Shown: positions 3,328 through 28,983 of the stretch, piece after piece
How the letters are laid out: each line of letters begins with the position of its first letter
How positions within the stretch are numbered: position 1 is the first letter of the stretch
Origin: Candidatus Poribacteria bacterium
GTDB lineage: Bacteria > Poribacteria > WGA-4E > JAJDTR01
DNA: 57,947 bases
Reading direction: 5' to 3'
NCBI GenBank assembly: GCA_028820655.1
Contig: JAPPIK010000036.1
Span: 1 to 57,947, forward strand
Notes under the pieces: generated by a model
Told to the model about the DNA's origin: nothing
Seen by the model: the letters and a program-made list of their open reading frames with translations, nothing else
Databases searched by the model: none
Translations under genes and position numbers: made by a program

Positions 3328-5121
3328 ATGAAAATACCATCCAATACTTTGCTAGAATTCTTAACTCTCGGGTTTATAGTCTACCAGTCTTTTTGGCTTA
3401 CCTACGCTGTTGCAGATTCCCCTGATAGCCAGGTTGTTGTTGCACAATACGAGTGGGAGGATGTCCAGTATCATATCTTGCTCGAAGACTTAGAGTCCTC
3501 CATCGACAAACTGCCTAGAAACCGCAGTGACGACTTTAAGTCCAGAGAACGCCGGGGGGAATATCTTCAGGAATTCTTGGATGAAAAACTGAAAATCCTA
3601 GATGCTATCAGCCGAAATTTGGATACGGATGCAACATTGCTCAAATCGGTAGAGGAGTATCAACAGCGACGGATGGTGCAGCGATTGATAGAGATGGAAG
3701 TCGATGAAAAAATCTCCTATACTGACCTTGAGCTTGAAGCGTACTATGCAGCGCACAAAGAGGACTACAGGGCGAAAGCGGAGTCGCACGCCACCTGTAT
3801 TAGCCTTACCAGCAATCGCCGGGCGCAAGAGGTGTTGGACGAGATAATAAACGGAAGAGACATCGAGGAACTGGCGGTAGAACTCTCTAGGAACGGGGAG
3901 CTAAGAGGACCCGGTGATATCGAATCCGATCCGGGCAATACACGTCTATTTGCCCAAACCGACTATCCACGTTGGAGAAAGTTCGTCGATGCCGTGTTCG
4001 CACTAGAGATTGGCGAGATGACTCGGGACGTTTTTGAAATCGAAGTCAGCAATGTGACCTATTTCATGATCTTCCGAAAAGACGCATATATTCCCGAACG
4101 GCAGATGTCTTACGATGAAGTGAGAGACGAAATAGAACAAAGAGTCGAAGACCGGAAGAAACGCAGCCGCTTCGCCCAGTGGATGAGCGCGGCACGAGAG
4201 AATGCCAGGTTCGACATATATTCAGATCGCCTTCCTGACCTGTCGGCCTTAAGCGGCAGTGCGTCGAAGGAAGGGGATATTGATGGAGACGGAACTGATA
4301 CCCTATCAATTGCCGAATTTGAGTGCGATGGCAGACAGTTTATCACGCTGGCGGAGGTAAAAGATGAGTTTAACGGACTTCCCGACTTTGCGAGAAAGAA
4401 ATATAAGGATAAATCGGGACTTGAGGAATATATCAATCTTATGGCGGAGAGTCGTTTGATGCTGTGTCTTGCCAAGGAACGGAAGATTGATGAAGATGCA
4501 AGAATCGTACAGGAAGTGAAAGATTATCAACACGACAGACTGATCGAGAAGATCACAGAATTGGAAATCGATCAGAAACTTCAACTCACCGAAGATGACT
4601 ATCGGCGTTTCTACGAGCAACACAAGGCTGACTATTTCCAACCGGAGAAGGTGCGCCTAATTTGCTTAACGTTAAGGAGCGAAGAGTTCGCGGAGCGAGT
4701 CTTTCAACGGATTCGGGAAGGTGAGGACATGATCGAGATTGCAACCGAACTGTCCGATAGGGGAGAACTGACGGTGGGACCGGGATCGAATCCCAAGAAA
4801 CCGGGTGACACCGGTTTCTTTACACACGCATCGTACGTTGAAAGAGCTGAGGCTTTCGCTGATGCCGCTTTTGCGCTTGAGGTCGGGGAGATGGTGAAGG
4901 AGGTTTTCCCGATTGAAGTGGAGGGGGAACAGTTTTACCTAATCTTTCGGAAAGAGGAGTATCGCGAGGCACGCCAACCGGAATTGGAAGAAGATTGGCT
5001 GCGTAGCCGCGTCGAAAACGACGCTGAACGCCGAAAGCGTCAAAGCCTTACAGAGGAATGGTTAACCCGACTCCGCGAACGGGCTAACGTTAAGACATTC
5101 CCGGACCGAATTCCCGAATAA
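3328..5121 (+). CDS. Periplasmic parvulin-type peptidyl-prolyl isomerase with internal duplication
   Basis: The 597-residue protein has an N-terminal hydrophobic segment (about residues 8-28), consistent with a signal peptide. Two homologous modules follow, at about 35-305 and 325-597. Each consists of a SurA/PrsA-like helical region (LxEYLxEFLDEKL in module 1, GLEEYINLMAESRL in module 2) and a PpiC-like region. Both modules carry the sequence of ELSxxGEL, a PGD spacer, FA-DAxFALExGEM and YxxIFRK. Proteins of this type assist folding of exported or outer-membrane proteins. The modules are joined by an acidic Gly/Asp linker around 310-320 (GDIDGDGTD). The start has only a weak ribosome site. 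The protein is roughly twice the length of a single-module PpiC protein. Confidence 0.85.
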   Translation: MKIPSNTLLEFLTLGFIVYQSFWLTYAVADSPDSQVVVAQYEWEDVQYHILLEDLESSIDKLPRNRSDDFKSRERRGEYLQEFLDEKLKILDAISRNLDTDATLLKSVEEYQQRRMVQRLIEMEVDEKISYTDLELEAYYAAHKEDYRAKAESHATCISLTSNRRAQEVLDEIINGRDIEELAVELSRNGELRGPGDIESDPGNTRLFAQTDYPRWRKFVDAVFALEIGEMTRDVFEIEVSNVTYFMIFRKDAYIPERQMSYDEVRDEIEQRVEDRKKRSRFAQWMSAARENARFDIYSDRLPDLSALSGSASKEGDIDGDGTDTLSIAEFECDGRQFITLAEVKDEFNGLPDFARKKYKDKSGLEEYINLMAESRLMLCLAKERKIDEDARIVQEVKDYQHDRLIEKITELEIDQKLQLTEDDYRRFYEQHKADYFQPEKVRLICLTLRSEEFAERVFQRIREGEDMIEIATELSDRGELTVGPGSNPKKPGDTGFFTHASYVERAEAFADAAFALEVGEMVKEVFPIEVEGEQFYLIFRKEEYREARQPELEEDWLRSRVENDAERRKRQSLTEEWLTRLRERANVKTFPDRIPE

Positions 5122-5262
5122 TTGTAGGGTAGAATCAAGCGACCGCACAGTGAATGAGCTAGGAACTTCCGCCCACCGTTTCTCGTGCGTGTCCCGTCTC
5201 ATTCCGGCTCGGTCCGGATTGTCAAATCCCGGCCCGATCCCTTCTCTCTCGTCAACCACAGA

Positions 5263-6510
5263 CTACCCAATCAGCGAAAGCACAGGCTCCGCCAAAAGCT
5301 GGCAAACCCTCTCCAAGAACCGTGCGGCGGGAGCGCCGTCGATGACGCGGTGATCGAACGTAAGACTCAACGACATCGTTTCGCCGGGGACAACCTCGCC
5401 GTTTAGGAGGACTGGTTCGCGGACTATACGGCCGACACCCAGAATTGCGGATTGCGGGAGGTTGATAATCGGAGTGAACGAATCAACGCCGTACCCGCCC
5501 AGATTGGTTATCGTAAAAACGCCGTTCTGTAACTGATCGACTTTCAATTCGCCTTTCCGCGCGGAGTCGACGATCTCTCGTGATTCGGCAGCTATTTTCG
5601 ATAGACTCTTTTCCGGGACGTCGAAGATCACCGGCGCCAACAGGCCGTTTTCCGTGTCAACGGCGAACGCGATATGAACATCCTCGGGAATGAATATCCC
5701 GTCCTCGCACCACTGCCCGGTAATCATCGGATGTTCGCCTGCCGCAATCGATGTGAGTTTCAACACCATGTCGGTGTATGTCGGGACGAACTGGTACTGA
5801 TCGGAGGCTTTGAACCGATCACGTAGCGCCACCAATCCGGAGGCGTCCACTTTAGTTGATATGGTGACCGGAGCAGCCTCATTCACACCGGCGACCATGC
5901 GTTCGGCAATCGTTTGCCGAATTCGCGTAATCGGAACTGTTGTCCCTCGCACTGCCGTTGCCGGAACTTCAACGGCAACTGGCGCCTTCGAAGCCCGGGC
6001 GGCAACTCTGATATCCGCTTCTCGGATGCGTCCCCCGACACCGGTTCCACGTAAACCTGACCATTCCACGCCAAGTTCGCGCGCTACACGCCGGGCACGC
6101 GGGGTAATTGCCGTTCTTTTCGATGGAGGTGCGCTTGACGGCTCAGGGACTTTCGATTCTGGCACCGGGGAGGGTGTTTCGGCTTGAGTTACCGGTTCCT
6201 CCTTGCGAGGCGGTTGGGGGGCTGCCGGTTTGGCGGCTCGTTCCAACTCGAACGGAGGGGTTTCACCCTCCTCCACCAAATAAGCCAGCATTTGGCTGAC
6301 GACCACTTCATCTCCGGGCTGCGGTGCATCCGGCGGTATTCGCAGAATCCCCGCGTCAAAGGATTCAATCTCTTGCGAAGCCTTCTCGCCTTCCAGGACA
6401 AACAGCATCTCGCCCGCTTCAACTCTCTCGCCATCCTGTTTCAGCCATTCCACAAACGTGCCTTCGTCCATAGACCAACCAAGGCGCGGCACTACAATTT
6501 CAATTGCCAT
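5263..6510 (-). CDS. Dihydrolipoamide acyltransferase (E2) of a 2-oxo-acid/acetoin dehydrogenase complex
   Basis: The protein has 415 residues. An N-terminal lipoyl domain covers about 1-78, with the lipoylated lysine in GEKAS (K43). A Pro/Ala/Glu-rich linker covers about 85-130. A peripheral-subunit-binding domain follows at about 133-170 (TPRARRVARELG). The C-terminal acyltransferase domain covers about 185-415 and has the catalytic DHRVIDG motif (His near 387). E2 passes the acyl group from E1-bound hydroxyethyl-TPP to CoA. The gene begins 12 nt after the E1 stop with a GAGGTG ribosome site, so it is the third gene of the SDR-E1-E2 operon. The sequence cannot distinguish pyruvate, branched-chain and acetoin complexes. 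No E3 gene (dihydrolipoamide dehydrogenase) is in the window. Confidence 0.93.
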   Translation of the reverse strand: MAIEIVVPRLGWSMDEGTFVEWLKQDGERVEAGEMLFVLEGEKASQEIESFDAGILRIPPDAPQPGDEVVVSQMLAYLVEEGETPPFELERAAKPAAPQPPRKEEPVTQAETPSPVPESKVPEPSSAPPSKRTAITPRARRVARELGVEWSGLRGTGVGGRIREADIRVAARASKAPVAVEVPATAVRGTTVPITRIRQTIAERMVAGVNEAAPVTISTKVDASGLVALRDRFKASDQYQFVPTYTDMVLKLTSIAAGEHPMITGQWCEDGIFIPEDVHIAFAVDTENGLLAPVIFDVPEKSLSKIAAESREIVDSARKGELKVDQLQNGVFTITNLGGYGVDSFTPIINLPQSAILGVGRIVREPVLLNGEVVPGETMSLSLTFDHRVIDGAPAARFLERVCQLLAEPVLSLIG

Positions 6511-6522
6511 TCATTCACCTCG

Positions 6523-8523
6523 TCATTCGGCGAGCAAGTCTCTTATTGCGTGCTCAATACTGTCAACGTTTGGGACCACTTCCTTCTCCAACGATGGACT
6601 ATACGGCGTTGGAGCAAAAGCGCCATTCAGACATTTTATCGGTGCATCAAGATCGTCGAACCCGGCATCCGCTACGCGCGCCGCAATTTCAGACGCCATG
6701 CTGCAAGGAGCAAAAACCTCGTCCACAATCAAGAGACGCCCCGTTTTGTGCACCGATTCGAGGACGCTGTCCAAATCGAACGGCGAGACAGTTCGCGGAT
6801 CGATGAGCTCCACGGATACATTATCGTTTGCCAACTGTGCCGCGACTTTTTCCGTATGATGACGCATCAACGCGAGTGCGACTACCGTGACATCGGTTCC
6901 TTCGCGCACGACATCAGCCTTTCCGAACGGAATCTCATACGTCTCCTCGGGTACAGGCCCCTTGATTGCCAACAACTCCCGATGCTCAAGAAATAGCACT
7001 GGATCCGTGCACCGAAGCGCGTGCATCATAAAACCTTTGGCATCATACGGAGTAGCTGGCATAACGACGCGCAGTCCCGGAATCTGGGCATAAATGGAAT
7101 GGTAGTTGCCCGAATGGTGGGTAGCCGCGGAGTGCCCAATCCCAACGCAGCCTCGCACAAGAACCGGCATCTTCAACCGTCCGCTGCTCATGTATTGCAT
7201 TTTGGCAATCTGATTGATAAGTTCCCCGAAACTGTCGTTAATAAAATCAAAAAACATGCAATCTATGACCGGTCGAGTGCCTGACATCGCGGCGCCGCCG
7301 CTAAGCCCGACAAATCCACGCTCGCAGATTGGAGTATCGCACAACCTATCCGCGCCATATTTCTCGAATAGGCCGTGGGTTGTCATGAAATTGCCGCCTC
7401 GTACTCCAACTCCCTCTCCCATGACAAAGATAGTATCGTCTTCCGCCATTGCCGCGTCGAGAGCTTCAAGCGTCGCGCCAACATACGTCGCCTCGCGATC
7501 TCCTTTGGACAATGGCTCCGAGATAGAATCGCCCGCAGGTACGGAATAGACGTGATCCGTAGCTGTTTTCCCATCCGGATAGCTGCTTTCTTCGGCAAAT
7601 TTGTGCGATTCGGCGACTAACTCCCGAATCTCCTCTTCAATAGCGTCCAACTCCGGGGCACCGGCTATACCTTTGTTTATTAACGTTCCCCGCAGTCGCT
7701 GTATTGGGCACCGCGTTTTCCATTCGTCAACATCCTCACGTGTCCGATACGTGAAATCTCCCATGCCTTCGGAATGCGCCCGCGTCCGGTAGGTCTTGCA
7801 TTCAATTAGCGTTGCGCCACGGCCGCTGCGAGCTCGCTCGATTGCCTCGCCCGCGATTCGATAAATCTCCAAGACATCATTCCCGTCAACCTCGTACCCG
7901 ACCAATCCATAGTTTGAGGCCCGTCGACCGACATCGGGAATCCCGCTCGCGTACTCGAATGGCACTTCGGTAGCGAACTGGTTGTTTTCGCAGACGAATA
8001 TGACGGGTAAATCCCAAATGCTCGCCATGTTCAATCCTTCGTGAAATGCGCCGTTGTTGACGCCGCCGTCACCAAAACAGGCCACCGCAACATTATCGGT
8101 CTTCTTGAGTTTGAAGGTATAGCCGCCGCCGCACGCTTGCAGGATACACGGTCCAACAATACCGCTCGTCCCCATCAACCCGATCTCCGGCTTGAACAGA
8201 TGCATGCTGCCGCCGCGTCCTTGTGAACAGCCGGTTTCTCGTCCATACAATTCCGCAATCAGTTCTCTGGGGTGAAGCCCCTTGGCTAACGCATGTCCGT
8301 GACCGCGATGAGTACTGAAGACAACATCGTCTTGTCGCAAATGGGCAAAGACGCCGGCCGCGATTGCCTCCTCGCCAACATATGTGTGACAGGCACCATG
8401 TACCAAACCGCGCTGATGAGATCTGGCAAGCTGTTCTTCAGACTGCCGAATCAACTGCATCGTGCGATAGCAGTCAAGCGCGGCGGTTTTGTTTAAGCCC
8501 AAATTTTCTTGTTGTACTTCCAT
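6523..8523 (-). CDS. Fused E1 alpha-beta subunit of a TPP-dependent 2-oxo-acid/acetoin dehydrogenase
   Basis: A single 666-residue chain carries both E1 subunits. The alpha half (about 1-325) has the TPP/Mg motif GDGGVNNGAFHEGLN beginning near 151 and ending in ENN near 181. The beta half (about 338-666) shows GEGVGVRGGNF, PVLVRG, LIDPRTVSPFD and the C-terminal transketolase domain. E1 decarboxylates the 2-oxo acid, or cleaves acetoin, and acylates the lipoyl arm of E2. I chose the ATG at 8523 over a GTG six bases upstream because AAGGAG lies 6 nt before it, embedded in the last codons of the SDR gene. That SDR stop is only 2 nt upstream, so translation is probably coupled. Many organisms encode alpha and beta separately; the fused form also occurs. 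Confidence 0.93.
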   Translation of the reverse strand: MEVQQENLGLNKTAALDCYRTMQLIRQSEEQLARSHQRGLVHGACHTYVGEEAIAAGVFAHLRQDDVVFSTHRGHGHALAKGLHPRELIAELYGRETGCSQGRGGSMHLFKPEIGLMGTSGIVGPCILQACGGGYTFKLKKTDNVAVACFGDGGVNNGAFHEGLNMASIWDLPVIFVCENNQFATEVPFEYASGIPDVGRRASNYGLVGYEVDGNDVLEIYRIAGEAIERARSGRGATLIECKTYRTRAHSEGMGDFTYRTREDVDEWKTRCPIQRLRGTLINKGIAGAPELDAIEEEIRELVAESHKFAEESSYPDGKTATDHVYSVPAGDSISEPLSKGDREATYVGATLEALDAAMAEDDTIFVMGEGVGVRGGNFMTTHGLFEKYGADRLCDTPICERGFVGLSGGAAMSGTRPVIDCMFFDFINDSFGELINQIAKMQYMSSGRLKMPVLVRGCVGIGHSAATHHSGNYHSIYAQIPGLRVVMPATPYDAKGFMMHALRCTDPVLFLEHRELLAIKGPVPEETYEIPFGKADVVREGTDVTVVALALMRHHTEKVAAQLANDNVSVELIDPRTVSPFDLDSVLESVHKTGRLLIVDEVFAPCSMASEIAARVADAGFDDLDAPIKCLNGAFAPTPYSPSLEKEVVPNVDSIEHAIRDLLAE

Positions 8524-8525
8524 TC

Positions 8526-9332
8526 TCACTCCTTAAATACTTCGGTACCGACCGATCCACCCGCGTTCATTGCAAGATTTCCACCGTCCATCGGGATAAT
8601 TGCACCCGTAATCCATGACGAAGCATCCGATGCCAGCAGTACCGAGAGCCCGCGGATGTCATCGGGACTGCCGAATCGCCCTCTTGGGATGCCGCTAAGG
8701 AATCGTTCCTTGATGCGCGGATCTTTGTCAATTCGTTGTTGCAGACCCGGGTTTAGAACCTGCGCGGGCAGGATTGCGTTCACACGCACACCGCGTCCCG
8801 ACCACTCGGTGCTCAGTTCCCTCGTCATTTGAACTACCGCTCCCATTGCCATGCTATATGCGATGTGTCCTCTGCCCATGCCCGTAATGCTGGCGAGCGA
8901 ACCAAGACTGACAATGCTGCCTCTTCCTGCGGCAAGCATGCGCCGTCCCGCTTCTTGAGCGCAACAGAACCGTCCGTAGACGAGATTGCGCCATGTCCAC
9001 TCTACATCGTCAAGGGAGATAACCTCCGGTTTGGCGCGTACCGCTTCGCCGGCGACGTTTCCTAAAAAGTCAACACGCCCGAACTCGTTGTCGAGTTGCA
9101 GGAACATGGCCCGAATTTCGTCCGGTCGGGACACGTTACAGTTCACCGGAACGGCACGGGGTCCCATGGATTCTATTTCACCGGCAGTTTTTTCGGCGCC
9201 TTCTATATTAATATCGAGAAGCATCAAGTCGGCGCCGGCCTCCCCCAGCGCAAGCGACATGGCGCGGCCCATTCCACTGGCGGCGCCCGACACAACGGCA
9301 ACTCGACCGGAAAGATCGAACATTTGTGTCAT
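8526..9332 (-). CDS. Short-chain dehydrogenase/reductase with Lys-to-Met change in the catalytic motif
   Basis: This is a 268-residue Rossmann SDR. The cofactor-binding motif GAASGMG lies at 16-22, NVAG is near 92-95, and a C-terminal SSWITGAIIPMDGG segment typical of FabG-like enzymes is present. The catalytic serine (S145) and tyrosine (Y159) are present. The motif reads Y-S-M-A-M, so position 163, normally lysine in YxxxK, is methionine (codon ATG, one base from AAG). Lysine loss usually cripples SDR catalysis, so the protein may be inactive, structural or unusual. It is the first gene of the SDR-E1-E2 operon. Its ATG has a GGGAGAA ribosome site, and a near-consensus promoter lies about 140 nt upstream. 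Confidence 0.9.
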   Translation of the reverse strand: MTQMFDLSGRVAVVSGAASGMGRAMSLALGEAGADLMLLDINIEGAEKTAGEIESMGPRAVPVNCNVSRPDEIRAMFLQLDNEFGRVDFLGNVAGEAVRAKPEVISLDDVEWTWRNLVYGRFCCAQEAGRRMLAAGRGSIVSLGSLASITGMGRGHIAYSMAMGAVVQMTRELSTEWSGRGVRVNAILPAQVLNPGLQQRIDKDPRIKERFLSGIPRGRFGSPDDIRGLSVLLASDASSWITGAIIPMDGGNLAMNAGGSVGTEVFKE

Positions 9333-9635
9333 AGCATTTTCTCCCTGTTCATGCGTGTCCTAAATTTGCCCTGTGGAGCAGTGGGTGGTTTTCAGTTTGT
9401 GATATAGGGATGCTCAAACAAAAAAAGCGTAGATTCCACTAACCAGCCCAACCTATTCGGCAAGAATCGCAGTATAGCATACACCGCGTTCGGTGTCAAC
9501 CTTCATGTCCATCAGCAGTTTGTGACTGAATGGCAGCCATTGATTTTGTCACGACCAGTAACTACGTCGTGAGTGTTTCATCTACGACCCGCAAAATTAT
9601 TTTCCCTTCCGACTTAATGACTTGGAGCAAAAACG
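9333..9635. other. Intergenic leader and spacer
   Basis: The 303-bp gap separates the Gfo/Idh/MocA stop from the SDR operon start. It contains the minus-strand promoter at 9471-9499 and an approximately 130-nt leader. I see no other gene or hairpin with a T-tract. Confidence 0.6.
9471..9499 (-). promoter_or_regulatory. Near-consensus sigma70 promoter of the SDR-E1-E2 operon
   Basis: On the minus strand TTGACA (9499-9494) and TATACT (9476-9471) are separated by exactly 17 nt. Eleven of twelve consensus positions match. It lies about 140 nt upstream of the SDR start codon and is correctly oriented. Confidence 0.8.
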
Positions 9636-10637
9636 TCAAATCCGTGGAATCGGTATCGCAACCTTCCCATTCCCCCGGCGCTGAGACTCCAGAAATCCGA
9701 CCATAATTTCGACGACATTGAGCGCCGCTCGTGCCGGTGATTTGGGTTCGCCGCCATTTTCGATTAATTGGACGAGTTCCACAACGCCCGCGGGGATTCC
9801 CTCCACTTCCCATTCGGGCGCCTCAACCGACTCAACGCTTTCCTGTCTGTAGATGGTGGAGCCGTGATTTCCTATGAGGATGTAGCCCGTAGAACCCACA
9901 ATCTCAAGGCGCACTCCGCTCCACATTGCCGATTTTGGTCCCCCGGCGTAGTAGCCGCGCACACCGTTGGCGAAGTGGATGTATCCGTGGGCTGACGGCT
10001 CGGTTTTCGGATCGTGCCCGCCATCCCCACGATACTCGGTATAGTCTTCGTAACCGTCTTCCAGTTCTGCGGACACCCATTCCGGATCGGAGTCGGCAAT
10101 GTAGCAGATTGCGTCGATCATGTGTGTTCCGTTACGGAAAAGCATCGCGCGAGGGCCGTTAAGAGTGCCGATTATATAGTGCACCGGCCCTATCTCACCG
10201 GCGTCGATCACTTCCTCCTTCGTATGACGCCACAAGGGAGTAAATCTGCGCGTGTGATCAATGGACAGGATGGTCCCGTTTCGTTCGGCCGTTTCCACCA
10301 TGCGGTCGGCATCATCCAGATTGGTCGCCATCGGCTTCTCGCAAAAGATTCCTTTTGCCCCCGCATTCGAAGCGTCGACGACGAGGTCGGCGTGCCGATG
10401 ATCCGAGGTCGCTACGGTGACGATATCGAGGTTTTCCTTCGCCAACATCTCTTGATGGTTTGTGTATAATCCAAGGTTGGGCCAGGTGTCCTTCCAATCC
10501 TCTTGGAAGCCGTCCAATGCCGGTTGCAGTAAGTCACAAGCAGCAACCAATTCGGCGTTGGGCAATCCGACCAAACCCTCCGCATGCTTTCTCCCGACTC
10601 CTTTACATCCGATAACTGCGGCACGAAGTTTTTGCAT
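9636..10637 (-). CDS. Gfo/Idh/MocA family oxidoreductase
   Basis: This 333-residue protein has an N-terminal NAD(P)-binding Rossmann domain (AVIGCKGVGRKHAEGL from residue 7) and the family signature C-E-K-P-M-A with K101. The C-terminal alpha/beta domain carries FRNGTHMIDAICY, which supplies the substrate-side Asp/His. Members oxidise or reduce hydroxyls of sugars, inositols or glycosides. The ATG is preceded by GGAGGAG. It lies 93 bp downstream of the ThuA-like gene on the same strand, and the two are probably co-transcribed. ThuA-like and Gfo/Idh/MocA pairs occur in disaccharide or keto-sugar metabolism, which supports a sugar substrate. Confidence 0.88.
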   Translation of the reverse strand: MQKLRAAVIGCKGVGRKHAEGLVGLPNAELVAACDLLQPALDGFQEDWKDTWPNLGLYTNHQEMLAKENLDIVTVATSDHRHADLVVDASNAGAKGIFCEKPMATNLDDADRMVETAERNGTILSIDHTRRFTPLWRHTKEEVIDAGEIGPVHYIIGTLNGPRAMLFRNGTHMIDAICYIADSDPEWVSAELEDGYEDYTEYRGDGGHDPKTEPSAHGYIHFANGVRGYYAGGPKSAMWSGVRLEIVGSTGYILIGNHGSTIYRQESVESVEAPEWEVEGIPAGVVELVQLIENGGEPKSPARAALNVVEIMVGFLESQRRGNGKVAIPIPRI

Positions 10638-13193: not shown

Positions 13194-14240
13194 ATGGCAA
13201 ATGTCGCCCATGCCGAGCCATATAGAGTTGCCATTGTCGGAACGGGTAGCATTGCGACACGGCACGGCAGGGCGTGCAATGAGGTCGATTCCACCGAATT
13301 GCGGGCAATTTGCGACATTTCGGAGGACTCTCTCTCGTCTTTTGGAGAAGAGTTCGGTGTGGCGCGTCGTTTCACCAGCTTACAGGAGATGCTGGATACC
13401 GAGAAAATCGACATCGCTATCGTTTCCACATGGGGCCCCTCGCACGCCCAAACCACCACGCAACTTGCCGACTCCGGAAGAGTTAAAGCGATCCTCTGCG
13501 AAAAACCGTTTGCACTCACCACGGACGAGGTCGAAGGAATGGCTGACGCGGCGCGGCGGAACGGTGTTTTGCTTGCGGAGGGGTTCAAATATCGCCACCA
13601 CCCCATGCACCTTCGTGCAAAGGAGTTGGTCGATAGCGGTGCCATCGGCGACATCCGTTCGATCCGCAGCACACTCGTTACACCGCCCAGAGTGCTTCGT
13701 ATGAAGAACAGCGACGGACAGCTCCTTCCTGACCGAAACTGGCGATGGAACCGGCAAAAGGGCGGAGGAAGCATTTACGATGTCGGGTGTTACTGTATTC
13801 ATCACGCACGGTTTATCCTCGATGCCGAACCGGTGCGAGTCTTCGCCGTTGCGGAATTCGGACTGGAAGTTGATGATGCCACCTATATTATCCTTGAATT
13901 TGCCAACGACCGCGCGGCTCAAATTTCGGTCGGCTACACCTCTTGGGATTCCCAATACACAGAAATCTGTGGAACAGCAGGGATGATTCGCATGGATCGC
14001 GCATGGAGCAACGAAGACAAGTCCGTCATTCTCCAACTTCAAACCAAAGATGAAAGCGATAACATCGACTTTGAGCCGACGTTTCAATTCGCCAATCAAC
14101 TTCAACACCTCTGCGATTGTCTAAGCACGGGCGCCCCGCACCGTATTTCATTGGATAACAGTGTTCGTCAAGCTAGAGTCATTGACGCCACCTTTGAGTC
14201 ACTTGAAACCGGCACGGCGGTTGAAATACAACCCGCATGA
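13194..14240 (+). CDS. Gfo/Idh/MocA family oxidoreductase
   Basis: The 348-residue protein has the dinucleotide-binding motif AIVGTGSIATRHG near 13-25, the signature CEKPF with K104, and the C-terminal DVGCYCIHHAR segment, which matches the D-xylose dehydrogenase/glucose-fructose oxidoreductase-like branch. It probably oxidises a sugar or polyol with NAD(P). An AGGAAAG ribosome site lies about 12 nt upstream of the ATG. The gene lies 135 bp downstream of LamG1 and 103 bp upstream of a small orphan gene. No signal peptide is present, although the first eight residues precede the Rossmann strand. Confidence 0.88.
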   Translation: MANVAHAEPYRVAIVGTGSIATRHGRACNEVDSTELRAICDISEDSLSSFGEEFGVARRFTSLQEMLDTEKIDIAIVSTWGPSHAQTTTQLADSGRVKAILCEKPFALTTDEVEGMADAARRNGVLLAEGFKYRHHPMHLRAKELVDSGAIGDIRSIRSTLVTPPRVLRMKNSDGQLLPDRNWRWNRQKGGGSIYDVGCYCIHHARFILDAEPVRVFAVAEFGLEVDDATYIILEFANDRAAQISVGYTSWDSQYTEICGTAGMIRMDRAWSNEDKSVILQLQTKDESDNIDFEPTFQFANQLQHLCDCLSTGAPHRISLDNSVRQARVIDATFESLETGTAVEIQPA

Positions 14241-18470: not shown

Positions 18471-19523
18471 TTACTCGCTTAAACCAAGAATCTTTCGATT
18501 GCGTTCAAGATTCACTTCACCGCCCACAAAGTCATCAAACGCCACTTCGGTGGTTTCGATGATTTGATCGGCAATAAAGGGTGCCCCCTCCGCTGCACCT
18601 TGCGCCGGGCTTTTCACACAACACTCCCATTCGAGTGTAGCCCAACCGTCGAAACCAGCCTCCGACAAGAGCGTGAACACACGCCTGAAATCAACCTGAC
18701 CGTCCCCTAGTGAACGGAACCTCCCCGCACGTCCCGTCCAAGGTTGATATCCTCCATAAACCCCCACGCGTCCCGTTGGACGAAATTCGGCATCCTTGAC
18801 GTGAAATCCCCTTATACGCTCTCCATAAATCCTGATGAATTCCAAGTAGTCGAGCTGTTGCAATAGAAGGTGGCTGGGATCGTAATTCAGACACGCCGCC
18901 GGATGATTGTCCGTAAAATCAAGGAACATCTCGTAGGTGGCGCCGTCATAAATGTCGGAGCCGGGATGCAACTCGTAGGCGAAGACAGTTCCGTTCTCAT
19001 GCGCCAAATCGAGTATTGGTCGCCATCGCTTAGCCAACTCCTTGAACGATTCCTCGATAATCCCATCGGGACGCTGGGGCCACGGATAGACCATGTACCA
19101 CGCAAATCCTCCGGACAGCGCCGGGATGACATCGGTGCCCATGTTGACCGAGGCGTGGATGCATTTTTTCAATTCTTCCGTAGCCCATTCGGTTCTGGCA
19201 TCACCCTTTAAGCCTGCCGGGTGAAACACTTCAAACATGACTTCGTAAGCCGGATGCACCGCGAGCACCTGTCCGGCGTGATATCCGCCCAATTCGGTCG
19301 GCTCGAGACCTATCTCTTTAAGTTTTCCCTTATAATCATCACAGTATGCCTTCGATTGCGCCGCCCGATCAAGATCTATAATCCGTATGTCCCACGTCGG
19401 GATCTGTACCCCCACGTATCCCAACCCCGCGACCCATCGTCCAATGTTTTCGATGTTGTTAAACGGTTCCTCATCTCGCATGAATTGGGCAAGCAATATC
19501 CCCGGGCCTTTCATCTTCGGCAT
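18471..19523 (-). CDS. Sugar phosphate isomerase/epimerase-like TIM barrel (AP endonuclease 2 fold)
   Basis: The 350-residue protein shows the metal-binding pattern of the xylose-isomerase-like superfamily: E in FAYELHPG, D/H in LNYDPSHLL, H in GFHVKDAE and the late E in ATLEWE. A substrate-side segment GRAGRFRSLGDGQVDF lies before the last strand. Members isomerise or epimerise sugars, or act on keto-glycosides together with Gfo/Idh/MocA enzymes. The start follows AGGAGAG. It heads a two-gene minus-strand operon with the SDR at 17587. The cysteine pair near ECCVKSP is unusual but not diagnostic. Confidence 0.88.
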   Translation of the reverse strand: MPKMKGPGILLAQFMRDEEPFNNIENIGRWVAGLGYVGVQIPTWDIRIIDLDRAAQSKAYCDDYKGKLKEIGLEPTELGGYHAGQVLAVHPAYEVMFEVFHPAGLKGDARTEWATEELKKCIHASVNMGTDVIPALSGGFAWYMVYPWPQRPDGIIEESFKELAKRWRPILDLAHENGTVFAYELHPGSDIYDGATYEMFLDFTDNHPAACLNYDPSHLLLQQLDYLEFIRIYGERIRGFHVKDAEFRPTGRVGVYGGYQPWTGRAGRFRSLGDGQVDFRRVFTLLSEAGFDGWATLEWECCVKSPAQGAAEGAPFIADQIIETTEVAFDDFVGGEVNLERNRKILGLSE

Positions 19524-20360: not shown

Positions 20361-21212
20361 ATGGCAGATCAAAGTTTCAGACTCACGGAACACCAGATTA
20401 ACTTCTACGACGTATTCGGTTATCTTAGTTTTCCCGGACTGGTAGCCGATCGAATAGATGAAATTGTACGAGAGTTCGAAAACGTGTGGGCGGAGCGCGG
20501 CGGCGGGCATTACGGCAAGCCGCATGAAGGCAAAGCCCGTTCATGTATTGTGCCCTTCATCGATCAGAGCGAAGTTCTCTGTACACTGCTTGACGACCAC
20601 CGCATTCTCGCCATTGCCAAAACGTTGCTCGGCGACGATTTCAACTACATGGGAAGCGATGGAAATTTTTATGTCGGCGACACGGGCTGGCACTCCGACG
20701 GCGGACACGGGCCCGATGACCCGATGCACATCAAAATCGCATTCTACCTTGATGTTTTGACCGGTGACACGGGATCGTTACGAGTCATCCCCGGTAGTCA
20801 TCGATTGGGAGATCATTATGCGGAAGCTCTGAGCGGCCAAATCGGGCAGAGCGCCGACCTGTGGGGAATTCACGGACGTGATGTGCCCGCCACTATCTTT
20901 GACACCCAACCGGGAGATGTTGTGCTGTTCAATCATAATTGCAAGCACTCGGCATTCGGCGGCGGCGGTCGGCGGCGCATGTTCACGATGAACTTATGTC
21001 AACGCTACCCGGACGACCGATTGGAAGATCTGCGCAACTACATCAGCGGCGGCGCCCGTTTCTGGGTCGAACGCGCCTTTAGTGAGAAAATGGTGAACAC
21101 AGCTGGGCCCGAGCGGATGCGGCATCTTGAGCAAGTAATGGCGAACGATGGACACCTAGCCGAAATGTCACGCCAAGCACGGGCGAGGATGTCAGAACCG
21201 TCACGCGGTTGA
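20361..21212 (+). CDS. Phytanoyl-CoA dioxygenase (PhyH)-like oxygenase
   Basis: This 283-residue Fe(II)/2-oxoglutarate oxygenase has the HxD motif in WHSDGG (H111, D113), the distal histidine in CKHSAFGGGG (H196) and RRRM for 2-oxoglutarate. PGDVVLFNHN precedes the distal motif. It is a close paralogue of the protein at 14836, sharing GDDFxYxGxDGNxYxGxTGWH. A GAGGGATTAGAG ribosome region precedes the ATG. It is the first gene of a six-gene plus-strand run leading to sugar-phosphate enzymes, and may hydroxylate an intermediate of that pathway or simply be co-regulated. The substrate is unknown. Confidence 0.9.
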   Translation: MADQSFRLTEHQINFYDVFGYLSFPGLVADRIDEIVREFENVWAERGGGHYGKPHEGKARSCIVPFIDQSEVLCTLLDDHRILAIAKTLLGDDFNYMGSDGNFYVGDTGWHSDGGHGPDDPMHIKIAFYLDVLTGDTGSLRVIPGSHRLGDHYAEALSGQIGQSADLWGIHGRDVPATIFDTQPGDVVLFNHNCKHSAFGGGGRRRMFTMNLCQRYPDDRLEDLRNYISGGARFWVERAFSEKMVNTAGPERMRHLEQVMANDGHLAEMSRQARARMSEPSRG

Positions 21213-21255
21213 TTATTTCGTTCCACACATTCATGTCTCATCAGTTATTGTTGTA

Positions 21256-22164
21256 ATGACCCAACAAGAATATACTAACGACAATATCGAAGTTGATTAC
21301 ACGCGCATCGTTGCTGACACCGAGGAGTCAACCCGGTTTCTACCCGGAAGCCCGATCGAGATAATTCGCTCGGTTAACTTCACCGGTCCTCCCGAATATG
21401 CCCTCTTTGACTTCGACGGCACGCTGAGTCTCATACGCGAGGGGTGGATGAATGTGATGATCCCGGTGATGGTCGAGGTTTTGCGTGAAACGGGAACCGG
21501 TGAATCACGTGAGCAGTTGCACAATCTTGTCTATAAGTTCGTGACCGAGCTAACGGGTAAGCAGACAATCTATCAGATGATTCGGTTGAAAGAGGAGGTA
21601 GCGCTACGAGGTGGTACTCCGCTGGATCCGCTTGATTATAAACGTGAATACCACAACCGCTTGATGGAGCGCATAAACTCGCGGCGAGAGGGGCTACGCA
21701 CCGGTCGAACTGCCCCGGGTGAAATGCTTGTTCCGGGAAGCGTTGAGCTACTTAACGGTCTCAAACGGCGGGATGTGCAAATGTATCTTGCCAGCGGCAC
21801 GGACGAGCACTATGTCCGCGAGGAGGCATTGCTGTTGGGGATCGACTCTTATTTCGGGGAAAACATCTACGGCGCCATCGACGATTATCGCTCATTTTCA
21901 AAAGCGCAAGTCATTCGTAACATCCTCGACAATGCAGATGTCGTGCCATCCAAGCTAGTGGGTTTCGGTGACGGCTATGTCGAAATCTTGAACGTGAAAG
22001 AGGCGGGAGGTACAGCGGTCGGTGTCGCGAGCGATGAATCCGAGCGCAGCGGCAAACCCGATGTTTGGAAACGCGAGCGGCTAATCGGGGTCGGAGCCGA
22101 TTTGATCATACCGGACTTTCGCCACCATGAAGACCTCATTGAATACCTCTGGCCGTCGCGTTGA
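21256..22164 (+). CDS. HAD-superfamily phosphatase
   Basis: The 302-residue protein has all HAD motifs: I in FDFDGT (nucleophile D52, general acid D54), II in LASGTD, III lysine in SFSKAQVI, and IV in GFGDGYVEI. An N-terminal extension of about 45 residues precedes motif I. It is a Mg-dependent phosphomonoesterase or related phosphotransferase. In this operon, with PfkB kinase and a GmhA-like isomerase, it could play a GmhB-like or sugar-phosphatase role, although it is not a classical GmhB. No strong ribosome site precedes the ATG. Spacing to the neighbours is 43 and 36 bp, as expected in an operon. Confidence 0.88.
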   Translation: MTQQEYTNDNIEVDYTRIVADTEESTRFLPGSPIEIIRSVNFTGPPEYALFDFDGTLSLIREGWMNVMIPVMVEVLRETGTGESREQLHNLVYKFVTELTGKQTIYQMIRLKEEVALRGGTPLDPLDYKREYHNRLMERINSRREGLRTGRTAPGEMLVPGSVELLNGLKRRDVQMYLASGTDEHYVREEALLLGIDSYFGENIYGAIDDYRSFSKAQVIRNILDNADVVPSKLVGFGDGYVEILNVKEAGGTAVGVASDESERSGKPDVWKRERLIGVGADLIIPDFRHHEDLIEYLWPSR

Positions 22165-22200
22165 TGAGGCCGTTGACCAACCCACATCTCGGAGAAAACC

Positions 22201-23268
22201 ATGAAAGCAGCCGTATTTTACCAGACCAATGTTCCCGTTTCAATCGAGGAACTTGAAATCGAGGCACCGCAAGAAGGCGAAGTCCTGCTTGACATCGTAG
22301 GGGCGGGAGTGTGCCATAGCGATTACCACTTCGTGGATGGCCACGTCAAACGCGAGGTGACGCCTTGGGTCATGGGACACGAAGGCGCTGGCGTCGTCGT
22401 GGAAACCGGTCCGGGTGTGTCAAACCTCGCCCCTGGCGACAAGGTCATTCTTTCGCTTGACGCTATGTGCGGATACTGTCGAACGTGCAGCCAAGGAAGC
22501 CCGGCGCTATGCGAAACGCATCCGGACAACCCCGTCAGCCGTATGAAGAAGGATGGACAGCCGTTTTATCACATTCGTCCCACGTTTGCGGAACAGACTA
22601 TAGCTCTGGCAAATGCCTGCGTCAAGGTGCCGAATGAAACACCGCTTGAGAAAGCGTGTCTTATTAGCTGTGCGGTGATTACGGGCATTGGAGCGGTCGT
22701 AAATAGGGCAAAAGTCGAGGCGGGGTCCGCCATGGTGGTGTTTGGATGCGGCGGCGTTGGCCTTAACGCCATTCAGGGAGGCGTCTTGGCGTCTGCCGGC
22801 AAAATCATTGCCGTTGACAGGGTTCCATACAAGCTGGAGTTAGCGGAACAATTTGGGGCTACTCATTTAGTGAACGCCGACAAAGAAGATCCCGTCCAGA
22901 GAATCAAGGAGATTACGGGCGGCGGAGCGGACTACGCCTTTGAGGTTGTCGGTTTTCCCGCCTTGGTTCGCCAAGCAATCGACTCGGTTCGCCCAACCGG
23001 GACAGCCGTAGTGGTGGGAGTACAGCCGGCGGGACAGGATATTTATGTTGATGGCTGGGACCTTCTGCACGACCGCGCCCTTATGGGCGGTTGGCACGGC
23101 GCCGCCAGAGCCAGAGTTGATTTCCTCTGGCTGCTCGACCTCTACAATCAGGGTAAGATTAAACTTGACGAGTTGATTTCGCGTTATCGACCACTGGACG
23201 AACTCAACGAGGCATTCGATGACATGAACCAAGGAAAGGTAGCGCGCACTGTAATCGTCTTCGACTGA
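22201..23268 (+). CDS. Zinc-dependent alcohol dehydrogenase (MDR superfamily)
   Basis: The 355-residue protein has the catalytic zinc ligands C38, H60 and E61 (GVCHSDYH, MGHEGAG). The structural zinc site has four cysteines, C90, C93, C96 and C104. The NAD-binding motif is GCGGVGLNAIQ. It is similar in pattern to class III or aryl/benzyl alcohol dehydrogenases. A GGAGAA ribosome site lies just before the ATG. Its position between a phosphatase and a sugar kinase suggests oxidation or reduction of a polyol or aldehyde intermediate, but its precise substrate cannot be told from the sequence. Confidence 0.92.
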   Translation: MKAAVFYQTNVPVSIEELEIEAPQEGEVLLDIVGAGVCHSDYHFVDGHVKREVTPWVMGHEGAGVVVETGPGVSNLAPGDKVILSLDAMCGYCRTCSQGSPALCETHPDNPVSRMKKDGQPFYHIRPTFAEQTIALANACVKVPNETPLEKACLISCAVITGIGAVVNRAKVEAGSAMVVFGCGGVGLNAIQGGVLASAGKIIAVDRVPYKLELAEQFGATHLVNADKEDPVQRIKEITGGGADYAFEVVGFPALVRQAIDSVRPTGTAVVVGVQPAGQDIYVDGWDLLHDRALMGGWHGAARARVDFLWLLDLYNQGKIKLDELISRYRPLDELNEAFDDMNQGKVARTVIVFD

Positions 23269-23389
23269 TTGACCTGTAGTAGCATGTTTCCCAGTGCCTC
23301 AGGATGGAAACCTACGATTGAAGCCTGAAAATCGGCGATGCCGAAATATACTGACCACTGGCACCTAACCATCGACCACAGTTTTTCAC

Positions 23390-24505
23390 ATGCCCTTTCC
23401 TCAATTCGATCGTTTCACGGTCCGCATGCAGCCGCTCTCGACAAGGGAGAATAAGAAGAATATCGTTCAAGACCACGTTTCTCCGGAGGCCGTACCAAAC
23501 CGGTTGAGTGCGACGGCACAAGCGCTGATTAGCAAATGCGGCGAGCGAGTGAGAAAAGCGAGGCGGGAAGATCTTCCGGTGATTCTTGCCTTTGGCGCCC
23601 ATGCGATCAAGAACGGACTCGCTCCCGTTTTTCTGAGCCTGATTGAGCGAGGATGGGTCACGCATTTGGCGACCAACGGCGCGGGAATTATCCATGACTG
23701 GGAGTTTGCGTTTCAAGGCAAGAGTTGCGAAGATGTCGAGTTAATGGTGCAGGAGGGACGTTTCGGCAATTGGGAAGAAACCGGGTTCTATATCAACCTT
23801 GCACTGAACGTCGGTGCTTATGAGGGGAAAGGGTACGGGGAGTCAATCGGCGCCCTAATTCAGAACGAAGGGTTAACCATCCCATCAACCGGCGAACTGG
23901 AGCGCTTCATCCAAAATGAGACCGCCAAACAGCCTGAAGCGGCTGCCGCAGCCGCGGACCTGCTTGGAGTGTTGCAGAGATTTGACTTACCAAGCGGTGC
24001 GTTAGAAGTTCCTCATCCGTGGAAACAATTCAGCATCCAAGCCGGGGCGTATCGGCAATGCATACCGTTCACCGGACATCCCATGATTGGACACGACATC
24101 ATCTATAACCATCCGATGAACTGTTGTGCCAGTCTCGGTAGAGCCGCGCAACGCGATTTTTTGACATTCGCCGAAAGTGTTAACCGTTTGGATGGCGGGG
24201 TCTATATTTCCGTCGGCTCGGCAATTATGAGCCCCATGATATTCGAGAAATCGCTCTCTATGGCGCAGAATCTTGCAATTCAAAACGGTGGACACATTGA
24301 CAATCATTTCATTTTAGTGAACGATCTCGCAGAATCAGATTGGGATTGGTCACGAGGCGAGCCACCTGAAGAGAATCCCGCCTATTACCTGAGATATAAC
24401 AAGACATTTAGCAGAATGGGCGGTACGATGCACTATCTGGGTGCGGACAATCGGGACTTCCTACTCGCTCTGTCCCACCAGTTATCGGGGGAGGCTAAAG
24501 TTTGA
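23390..24505 (+). CDS. Conserved protein of unknown function, possibly deoxyhypusine-synthase-like
   Basis: The 371-residue protein belongs to no family I can name confidently. Its core reads VILAFGAHAIKNGLAPV, then VTHLATNGAGIIHDWEFAF, then a Gly/Tyr-rich stretch (GAYEGKGYGESIGAL) and later GGVYISVGSAIMSPMIFEKS. The order of a glycine-rich strand, an NGL turn and a T-NGAG loop faintly recalls the NAD-binding fold of deoxyhypusine synthase, which is a weak analogy. The stop overlaps the TTG start of the PfkB kinase by 3 nt, so the two proteins are probably made in a coupled way. The gap upstream (121 bp) is the largest in the operon, and the ATG at 23390 has no clear ribosome site. Confidence 0.7.
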   Translation: MPFPQFDRFTVRMQPLSTRENKKNIVQDHVSPEAVPNRLSATAQALISKCGERVRKARREDLPVILAFGAHAIKNGLAPVFLSLIERGWVTHLATNGAGIIHDWEFAFQGKSCEDVELMVQEGRFGNWEETGFYINLALNVGAYEGKGYGESIGALIQNEGLTIPSTGELERFIQNETAKQPEAAAAAADLLGVLQRFDLPSGALEVPHPWKQFSIQAGAYRQCIPFTGHPMIGHDIIYNHPMNCCASLGRAAQRDFLTFAESVNRLDGGVYISVGSAIMSPMIFEKSLSMAQNLAIQNGGHIDNHFILVNDLAESDWDWSRGEPPEENPAYYLRYNKTFSRMGGTMHYLGADNRDFLLALSHQLSGEAKV

Positions 24506-25554
24506 GCAACGCGCTGCTTTCTCAGGATGGTCTGCATCAACTCATCGAACGATTCCCGAATTGCCGCATAGCCGTTCTCGGCGATTTCTTCTTGGACAAA
24601 TACTTGGACACTGATCCGGCGCTCGTTGAAACCAGTGTTGAAACAGGCAAAGAAGCGCACCAAGTCGTTCGCATCCGTTGCAGCCCGGGAGCCGCCGGAA
24701 CGGTTGTCAATAACCTAGCGTCGCTGAATCCCGGTCAATTGCACGCTATCGGTCTCACCGGCGACGACGGTGAAGCCTTTGAGCTGCGGCGCGGCCTTGC
24801 CGCTCGGAACTGCACGACTGACCATCTAATCCGGTCGTCTTCGCACAATACACCCACGTACCTCAAACCGAGAGACAACTCGATACCGGGGTTGGACGGG
24901 GAAATATGCCGCTATGATACAAAAAATCGGGATCCTATGTCACCCGAACTGGAGGCGCAGCTTATCCAAGCGCTTGACGTGCTTCTGCCGGAACTTGACG
25001 CCGTAATAATTTTGGATCAGGTTGAGGAAGCGGTGGGAGGTGTGCTCTCTTCGGCCATCCGCGACGCTGCCATTGAGCGTGCTCAACGATTTCCCGGCGT
25101 CGTATTCTGGGTGGATAGCAGGGAACGCGTCCACGAATTCCGACGCATGACGTTAAAATCAAACGAATATGAAGTGCTCGGCATGAAACAGCCCCCACCG
25201 GGAACTATAATAGATTTGAATAAAGTAGAGGTTGAAGCTCGTAAACTCCGGCGGAGAAACGGCGCCCCGGTCGTCGTTACGTGCGGTGACAAGGGTGTCT
25301 TGATCAGCGATCCCGACTGGAAGTGGGTTCCAGCCGTACGCGTAGACGGCGAAATTGATGCCACCGGGGCGGGAGACAGCTTTAACGCCGGAGCCACGCT
25401 TGCCCTAGCTGCCGGCGCTTCTTTCGCTGAAGCAACGGTTGTCGCGCACCTTGTCGCATCGATTACTATCCAACAACTCGCTACAACCGGAGTCGCGCGC
25501 CCCTATCAGTTGCCGGACCGGCTCAGTCTTTGGATTCAACAGCAAAAGGAATGA
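24502..25554 (+). CDS. PfkB-family sugar kinase, HldE/RfaE kinase-like
   Basis: The 350-residue ribokinase-fold enzyme has IAVLGDFFLDKYLD at the start, a CSPGAAGTVVNNLASL segment similar to the glycine-rich substrate loop of heptose kinases, and the C-terminal signature DATGAGDSF (286-294) with catalytic base D292. It phosphorylates a sugar or sugar phosphate with ATP. The TTG start at 24502 overlaps the upstream TGA (TTTGA) and has a strong GGGGGAGG ribosome site, which supports translational coupling. The GmhA-like SIS gene follows after 4 nt. The combination argues for a heptose-like or related sugar-phosphate pathway. No nucleotidyltransferase domain is fused, unlike in E. coli HldE. Confidence 0.9.
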   Translation: MSNALLSQDGLHQLIERFPNCRIAVLGDFFLDKYLDTDPALVETSVETGKEAHQVVRIRCSPGAAGTVVNNLASLNPGQLHAIGLTGDDGEAFELRRGLAARNCTTDHLIRSSSHNTPTYLKPRDNSIPGLDGEICRYDTKNRDPMSPELEAQLIQALDVLLPELDAVIILDQVEEAVGGVLSSAIRDAAIERAQRFPGVVFWVDSRERVHEFRRMTLKSNEYEVLGMKQPPPGTIIDLNKVEVEARKLRRRNGAPVVVTCGDKGVLISDPDWKWVPAVRVDGEIDATGAGDSFNAGATLALAAGASFAEATVVAHLVASITIQQLATTGVARPYQLPDRLSLWIQQQKE

Positions 25555-25558
25555 TCGC

Positions 25559-26128
25559 ATGGAAAATTCGTCATTTGCTTCCCAGTATCTAGAATCGCTT
25601 TCGGGAATCCTCTTGGGAATCGATGCCTCACAAGTCCAACGGGCGGTTGAAACGCTGCGAGACGCACGCGACCGGGGAAGCACTATCTACTCGTGCGGCA
25701 ATGGCGGAAGCGCAAGCATCGCTTCGCAGATGGTTGTCGATCTCGTGAAAGGCGGTTCCTACGGAAAGCCGACACCACGCATCAAGATGATCGGGTTGAC
25801 CGATAGCATTGCTACTGTGACCGCCTACGCCAACGATGTAAGTTACGATTCCGTATTTGTAGAACAGCTTAAGAACTGGGCAGCGCCCGATGACGTGCTC
25901 ATAGCCATTAGCGGCAGCGGCAACAGCCAAAATGTGCTAAATGCCGTTGAATACGCTAACGAATGCAATGTCATAACAATTGCGTGCACCACCGCTGAAG
26001 GTGGGAAACTCAGAGATCTCGTCCGCATACCGCTTCTCGTTCCGTCGTCGCACATGGGCCACCTCGAAGATTGTTTCTTTGCGATGACGCACGTCCTCTG
26101 TTACGCATTCATCGAAGAGCGCGTGTAA
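25559..26128 (+). CDS. SIS-domain phosphosugar isomerase, GmhA-like
   Basis: The 189-residue protein has the SIS fold with CGNGGSAS (46-53) and AISGSGNSQNVL, which bind the phosphosugar, and a C-terminal HMGHLEDCFFAMTHVLCYA segment typical of GmhA/DiaA. Its length matches sedoheptulose-7-phosphate isomerase (about 190 residues). I chose the ATG at 25559, which follows AAAGGAATGA and sits 4 nt after the kinase stop, over an upstream extension to 25439 that overlaps the kinase gene. It may convert a ketose phosphate to the aldose phosphate used by the neighbouring kinase. Other SIS functions remain possible. Confidence 0.88.
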   Translation: MENSSFASQYLESLSGILLGIDASQVQRAVETLRDARDRGSTIYSCGNGGSASIASQMVVDLVKGGSYGKPTPRIKMIGLTDSIATVTAYANDVSYDSVFVEQLKNWAAPDDVLIAISGSGNSQNVLNAVEYANECNVITIACTTAEGGKLRDLVRIPLLVPSSHMGHLEDCFFAMTHVLCYAFIEERV

Positions 26129-27765: not shown

Positions 27766-28983
27766 ATGAAAATTACCGATCTCAAGACATACGTAGTCGC
27801 AAATCCACCTCCCCACCGGGGCGGGCCCTATTTTGTCTTCCTGAAACTCACCACCAACGACATCGTCCATGGCTTCGGTGAGGTGTACGGCGTGCCGTTC
27901 CAACCCGGCAAAGTTACGGCACTCATTGAGGACGTTGTCGGTCGAAACGTCATAGGGAGAGATCCGTTCCAGATCGAAAAACTGTGGCGGATAGTGTACT
28001 CAAGAGGCTACACGCAGCACCCCGATCTTACCTTGGTCGGAATACTTAGCGGAATCGAAAAAGCCTGTTGGGATATTATCGGAAAAGCCCTGAATCAACC
28101 CATCTACAACTTGCTCGGCGGGCAGGTTCACGAGAAATTGCGTTCCTACACGTACTTGTACGCCGATTCCGATGTGCCTCCACCAACCGACACCGCTCAC
28201 GACCGCAGGATACCCGTCAACTTGCACAGTCACCCGCAGCTCGCCGCTGAACGAGCTGCTGCGTACGTTGAGCATGGGTTCACCGCCGTGAAATTCGATC
28301 CCGTCTGGGGAATGTCCGCCTTTGACCCGCGCCAGCTTTCTTTAGAGGTTCTGGACAACGCCGAATGCGTCACAAAGACTATTCGAGAAGCGGTCGGCAA
28401 CAGGTGCGACCTGCTCATCGGCACTCACGGACAGATGACCACTTCCAGCGCAATCCGCCTCGCCAAGCGCCTGGAGCCATTCGATCCACTTTGGTTCGAG
28501 GAGCCGGTGCCGCCGGAAAACCCGTCGGAAATGGCACGTGTCGCCCAATCCACCAGCATCCCGGTTGCTACCGGCGAACGCTTGACGACAAAGTACGAAT
28601 ACGCAGAACTATTGCAAAGACAAGCCGCCGCGATCCTTCAACCCGCTCTCGCTCGAGTTGGGGGAATACTTGAGGCAAAGAAGATTGCGGGAATGGCGGA
28701 GGCGCATTACGCGCAGATTGCCCCTCACCTCTACTGCGGTCCAATCGAAGCCGCCGCTAACATTCAACTCGGAACATGCAGCCCGAATTTCCTCATTCAG
28801 GAAAGCATTGAGACGTTCGGCGGCTTTCACGCCGAACTTCTCAAAGAACCCATCAGATGGGAGGACGGCTACATTATACCGTCGGACAAACCGGGATTGG
28901 GCGTTGAACTGGACGAGGAAGTCGCGGCACAGCATCCGTATTCCGGACCCATCTTTCCCGAAATGACCGAAAGACCGATTTAG
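27766..28983 (+). CDS. Enolase-superfamily sugar acid dehydratase-like protein (mandelate racemase/muconate lactonizing family)
   Basis: The 405-residue protein has an N-terminal capping domain and a modified TIM barrel. Visible landmarks are K176 in AVKFDP, H221 in IGTHGQ, E245/E246 in WFEEPVPPEN, E271 in ATGERL and H321 in APHLYCGPIEAAANIQ. These resemble galactonate and mannonate dehydratases, which turn aldonic acids into 2-keto-3-deoxy acids. At the first metal position, where related enzymes usually have Asp before x-His-Gly, this protein has Gly (G219-T-H221-G). The ATG has only a weak ribosome site. It lies after the LamG2 terminator and before the sialidase-like gene. Confidence 0.88.
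   Translation: MKITDLKTYVVANPPPHRGGPYFVFLKLTTNDIVHGFGEVYGVPFQPGKVTALIEDVVGRNVIGRDPFQIEKLWRIVYSRGYTQHPDLTLVGILSGIEKACWDIIGKALNQPIYNLLGGQVHEKLRSYTYLYADSDVPPPTDTAHDRRIPVNLHSHPQLAAERAAAYVEHGFTAVKFDPVWGMSAFDPRQLSLEVLDNAECVTKTIREAVGNRCDLLIGTHGQMTTSSAIRLAKRLEPFDPLWFEEPVPPENPSEMARVAQSTSIPVATGERLTTKYEYAELLQRQAAAILQPALARVGGILEAKKIAGMAEAHYAQIAPHLYCGPIEAAANIQLGTCSPNFLIQESIETFGGFHAELLKEPIRWEDGYIIPSDKPGLGVELDEEVAAQHPYSGPIFPEMTERPI

Follow-up and report, generated by a model that had tools for sequence, protein, structure and literature searches.

A described system close to the one reported here is found in Geobacter, where GSU2086 lies between hldE and gmhA (GSU2085–2087) and all three genes score among those needed for growth on an electrode (PMC5585712). 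Other systems with points of likeness are the ADP-heptose route (GmhA, HldA or HldE, GmhB and HldC) and, in predicted fold, deoxyhypusine synthase (DHS), the C-terminal ornithine cyclodeaminase domain of AgrE/ArgZ and archaeal LOR/SDH. We analyzed a distant paralogue of GSU2086 encoded in a stretch of 57,947 nucleotides from a Candidatus Poribacteria bacterium (assembly GCA_028820655.1, contig JAPPIK010000036.1, here referred to as the window). This 371-residue protein (“the orphan”, 23390–24505) is the fourth product of an operon of six plus-strand open reading frames (ORFs) at 20361–26128, in the order PhyH, HAD, zinc-dependent alcohol dehydrogenase (ADH), orphan, PfkB and SIS. We consider that the operon probably serves an uncharacterized sugar-phosphate pathway, with the orphan catalysing one NAD-dependent, redox-neutral step of it, and that the conserved core probably consists of a ROK kinase, a GmhA-like SIS isomerase, an HldA-like PfkB kinase, a C1-cap HAD phosphatase or mutase and the GSU2086-family protein.

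An earlier note on this DNA had designated the orphan as a protein of unknown family. In fact, it scores 315.4 bits against the profile NF052581 (GSU2086 family protein), whose curated cut-off is 250, and its residues 5–363 align to positions 1–300, so that the whole model is covered. The name of this family carries no function; the profile search and structure prediction suggested in that note thus yielded a family and a DHS/AgrE-like fold, with no family function attached. The orphan differs from the 301-position model in its greater length, with an insert typical of its clade at about residues 160–210 relative to the other types in the alignment, and in its partners, which are HAD, PfkB and a second GmhA-like SIS (SIS-2) rather than HldE and GmhA. 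A tree of 96 orphan-family proteins comprises three groups, A, B and C. Clade C contains 83 of them, namely the window protein, those of the sister genome (G001) and of G075, and the proteins from 80 homologous loci in Planctomycetota, Hydrogenedentota, Bacteroidota, Spirochaetota, Verrucomicrobiota, Lentisphaerota, Latescibacterota, Gemmatimonadota and others.

Evidence for a common role comes from gene neighbourhoods. Among these 80 loci, which are the best 80 of 579, a HAD or PfkB relative is present within 3 kb of the orphan homologue in 44, distributed over many phyla. The HAD and PfkB matches near orphan homologues number 58, whereas the 286 kb of flank lying 5–8 kb away at the same loci contain none. 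The architectures observed include HAD-DHSL-PfkB, HAD-PfkB-DHSL, SIS-ROK-HAD-PfkB-DHSL and ROK-SIS-HAD-DHSL-PfkB, where DHSL denotes the homologue of the orphan. Moreover, in 24 of the 80 loci PfkB and HAD are fused in one protein beside the orphan homologue, for example in a 641-residue protein of L115 with PfkB at residues 65–320 and HAD at 377–590. Other neighbours are SIS (19 loci), AGE epimerase (14), ROK (13), SSS symporter (9), GH38 (7) and DUF1080 (5). Of 25 genomes lacking an adjacent HAD gene, 17 carry one elsewhere, in several cases beside PfkB; PfkB matches in such genomes with E of about 1e-25 to 1e-35 and ORFs of about 500 residues may be HldE and were left uncounted.

The same genes are inherited together. 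With a cut-off of E below 1e-60, HAD orthologs were found in 66 of 73 genomes that possess a type B or C gene versus 1 of 25 that do not, types A and B being separated by score in the search listing. Five of 59 relatives (G004, G013, G020, G034 and G053) lack both B and C. None of these five has the PfkB or the ROK ortholog, which occur in 53 and 51, respectively, of the other 54; and SIS-2, searched in 45 genomes, is present in 40/41 versus 0/4. The module genes are scattered in the order relatives, with ROK and SIS adjacent, and linkage therefore does not account for their joint inheritance. The earlier note's expectation that PfkB and SIS genes would accompany the orphan in other genomes was borne out by both kinds of count, HAD being added to the set as a conserved member of the module. 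These data support a functional link of the orphan with PfkB, SIS and HAD genes in many genomes.

We then consider what the orphan may do. Its AlphaFold2 model has a pLDDT of 90, and the best Foldseek matches in the PDB, with E of about 1e-6 and a probability of 1.00, are AgrE with bound NAD and ornithine, DHS and archaeal LOR/SDH; all 50 matches listed belong to AgrE/ArgZ, DHS or LOR/SDH. In a profile search of PDB sequences, AgrE/ArgZ and archaeal LOR/SDH (PDB 6lrg, 6juy and 3c2q) rank first, and the aligned region ends in a shared HDxE motif. The orphan differs from these proteins by an identity of about 13%, a TM-score of about 0.45 and its association with sugar enzymes instead of arginine metabolism. 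Among the 96 family members, conservation reaches 97% or more at 31 positions, and these near-invariant residues include G69, H71, H102, D103, E105, D236, H241, K287, N294, D312 and R335. DHS itself (PDB 7cmc and 1dhs) would share the NAD-binding fold with the orphan, and there is a weak match to the Pfam deoxyhypusine synthase (DS) model (18.3 bits, E 0.0015), so that an ordinary deoxyhypusine or homospermidine synthase lying in the operon by chance has to be weighed. However, the match is under the 27-bit cut-off, and the SWGK motif with the catalytic lysine, present in most of the true DHS-family sequences fetched, is found in 0/96 orphan-family sequences. In addition, no true DHS gene was found in any order relative, and the orphan is strongly linked to sugar enzymes in a bacterial context. 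We therefore rejected this candidate, on the cut-off and the missing motif, as extremely improbable; the models rather suggest an NAD-binding enzyme other than DHS.

The earlier note's family calls of PhyH, HAD, ADH, PfkB and SIS were right according to Pfam and NCBIfam matches. The HAD hydrolase (21256–22164, Pfam PF00702) possesses motifs I–IV (DFDGT, ASGTD, the lysine of FSK, and GDGYVE). A sequence search of the PDB gave no match to it, and its AlphaFold2 model (pLDDT 88.5) is predicted by Foldseek to be of the C1-cap type, closest to beta-phosphoglucomutase and the alnumycin P phosphatase AlnB. The PfkB sugar kinase (24502–25554) has a domain score of 77 bits in Pfam and a GAGD catalytic motif at 289, and is paralogous to HldA/RfaE domain I, with 122.9 bits versus the HldA cut-off of 345. 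The SIS-domain isomerase (25559–26128) belongs to a GmhA-like subfamily, with 104 bits versus the GmhA cut-off of 276. At the equivalents of GmhA His61, Glu65, Gln172 and His180 (E. coli numbering) it has Gln, Asp, Glu and His, so that His180 alone is kept; most other SIS-2 proteins retain His61 and share the Asp.

The paralogy of kinase and isomerase, together with the recurring isomerase-kinase-phosphatase logic, had led the earlier note to recall the heptose-7-phosphate route. The resemblance stands insofar as paralogues of the orphan accompany hldE and gmhA in Geobacter and SIS and RfaE-like genes in a Lambdaproteobacterium (L128). The direct ADP-heptose route was rejected on the cut-offs of kinase and SIS, the changed SIS site and the separate position of the canonical genes. 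The genome of the window (G000) contains HldA (363.5 bits, over the 345 cut-off) beside a GmhB-like gene, assigned by reading of its sequence, on contig C22, and HldC on contig C18; as the earlier note had observed, the cluster itself includes no nucleotidyltransferase. Its HAD is of another class, with no detectable similarity to the GmhB of the same genome (E 0.42), and the wider module has an additional NAD-type enzyme and a ROK kinase.

A variant of the route deserves more attention, in which SIS would serve as the GmhA of this genome, with the orphan as an accessory heptose enzyme and with kinase and HAD as reserves for HldA and GmhB. Neither G000 nor its sister yielded a canonical GmhA, although the former has HldA, GmhB and HldC; the operon SIS is the only GmhA-type one, and because of this it might moonlight as GmhA. 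The position of the Geobacter paralogue, the fact that type A tracks canonical GmhA in the relatives (34/36 versus 2/9) and the L128 cluster point the same way. In this cluster (3600–10516), a basal clade C gene is found with a GmhA-like SIS, an RfaE-like protein of cytidylyltransferase type, a sugar nucleotidyltransferase, a radical SAM protein and a split transketolase, which together resemble a possible nucleotide-sugar pathway. Nevertheless, we regard the variant as unlikely, since kinase and SIS score far under the heptose cut-offs, the active-site positions are altered and the HAD is not GmhB-like. Moreover, many order relatives hold the SIS-2 set besides canonical GmhA, an HldC-like gene is nearby in only 1/80 loci, and the assembly is 95% complete, so that GmhA may be absent from the assembly alone.

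The pathway that we favour, with the orphan as a redox-neutral NAD enzyme, would begin with phosphorylation of a sugar, after which SIS would interconvert the aldose and ketose phosphates, PfkB would add a second phosphate, perhaps at C1, and HAD would remove or move one phosphate. The GSU2086-family protein would bind NAD+ and act on a pathway sugar by oxidation, then rearrangement, epimerization or elimination, and then reduction, the course that DHS and AgrE follow with amines. We infer the kinase-isomerase-kinase-phosphatase order, the use of NAD and the redox-neutral chemistry. Such a pathway may be a catabolic one for imported or released sugars, with transporter and glycosidase supplying the sugar, AGE epimerase and ROK preparing it, SIS, PfkB and HAD processing it, and the orphan opening or epimerizing it. 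This would agree with the Bacteroidota and Spirochaetota loci, where the core occurs with the AGE epimerase, SSS symporter, GH38 mannosidase and DUF1080 genes counted above, as well as sugar ABC permeases and LacI regulators. But neither an aldolase nor any other obvious exit enzyme was seen, the genes are scattered in the order of the window and the L128 cluster looks biosynthetic, so that we hold the catabolic version to be doubtful; it refines rather than contradicts the favoured pathway.

Several observations weigh against the proposal. The 80 loci are biased to clade C; 32 of them have no module gene close by, and SIS is near the orphan homologue in only 19. The co-occurrence counts depend on the E-value thresholds applied and come from genomes related to one another; only five or six order genomes lack type B, and most genomes without the module set come from one genus (g2). 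Because of this relatedness, Fisher values look stronger than the evidence is. The genus of the window lacks the conserved ROK, its best match having 39% identity. As to the fold, TM-scores are only about 0.45 to DHS as well as to AgrE, and hhalign gives a probability of 82% for the orphan family versus true DHS; from such TM-scores, NAD binding and redox-neutral chemistry are therefore inferred.

With these reservations, our working picture is that the GSU2086 family acts on sugar phosphates like those of GmhA/HldA-type enzymes and that separate paralogous sets deal with different sugars. A wider claim, which we put forward tentatively and with less confidence than the proposal for the operon, is that this is an undescribed and widespread bacterial sugar pathway for which an enzyme of the DHS superfamily may have been taken over from amine chemistry and put to use on sugar phosphates (NAD-dependent, redox-neutral epimerization, cyclization or elimination), with paralogues A and B/C tied to the heptose route and to the module, respectively. 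The earlier note had likewise seen a likely undescribed pathway here. It holds as far as the family lacks a known role and no paper on the pathway was found, while the link to the ADP-heptose route does not; our literature search returned no relevant paper linking deoxyhypusine synthase with heptose, PfkB, GmhA, sugar kinase, ROK or N-acylglucosamine 2-epimerase. GSU2086, a family known by locus name only, thereby gains a testable context, co-inherited with defined sugar-phosphate enzymes across many phyla, and the bearers with the module include the cultured Sphaerochaeta and Mariniphaga. If the orphan does act on sugars, the DHS fold would support a third chemistry, next to the formation of hypusine and polyamines and the cyclodeamination of ornithine.

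The orphans of the window and its sister are nested within Planctomycetota with support of 100/98, while the order relatives carry types A and B; the operon is therefore horizontally acquired and Planctomycetota-like. Its SIS and PfkB are 62% and 56% identical to those of a Planctomyces (L167), and its HAD is 61% identical to that of L057. Candidatus Alistipes intestinigallinarum (L106, from 8001 onward) has two tandem clade C copies downstream of a HAD/PfkB fusion. Type B genes of relatives adjoin, or sit a few genes from, a gene for a LarA-like protein (L034:6988–8286, L046:9585–10853 and L164:8830–10107), which in L046 scores 592 bits, above the threshold of NF052594 (“nickel-dependent putative hexonate epimerase”). 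By sequence reading, the type A genes L042:7149–8159 and L043:9406–11073 overlap a GT9 heptosyltransferase-like and an O-antigen ligase-like gene.

The six ORFs are as tightly spaced as the earlier note had described, with gaps of 43, 36 and 121 nt, a 4-nt overlap and a gap of 4 nt. The overlap lies between the TTG start of the kinase (24502) and the stop of the orphan (24503–24505), and the SIS start (ATG, 25559) follows the kinase stop after 4 nt. In the sister genome all operon genes are present in the same order with 81–94% identity. Its kinase ORF begins about 170 nt downstream of the orphan, which rules out a conserved translational overlap. Because of this full synteny and the recurrence of the HAD/PfkB/orphan association across many phyla, the operon is beyond chance.

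The PhyH-family Fe(II)/2-oxoglutarate dioxygenase (20361–21212, Pfam PF05721, 6.9e-11) shows a weak PDB match to ectoine hydroxylase, and the ADH (22201–23268), assigned by family and profile matches, is a zinc-dependent medium-chain enzyme. The earlier note had set both beside the heptose-like genes as further members of the operon, but a place in the conserved set is not supported. PhyH is kept in the sister genome, but no relative of it was found near orphan homologues at the 80 loci, and those of ADH are weak matches only. Without comparable neighbours at other loci a conserved role is ruled out for both, and they are additions specific to the genus of the window, outside the conserved gene set; they may adapt the pathway product. 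The surroundings of the operon are a sugar-rich region, whose flanking sugar genes are not shown to be operon members: an IolE-like TIM barrel (18471–19523, minus strand), a Gfo/Idh/MocA oxidoreductase (13194–14240) and an MR/MLE dehydratase (27766–28983).

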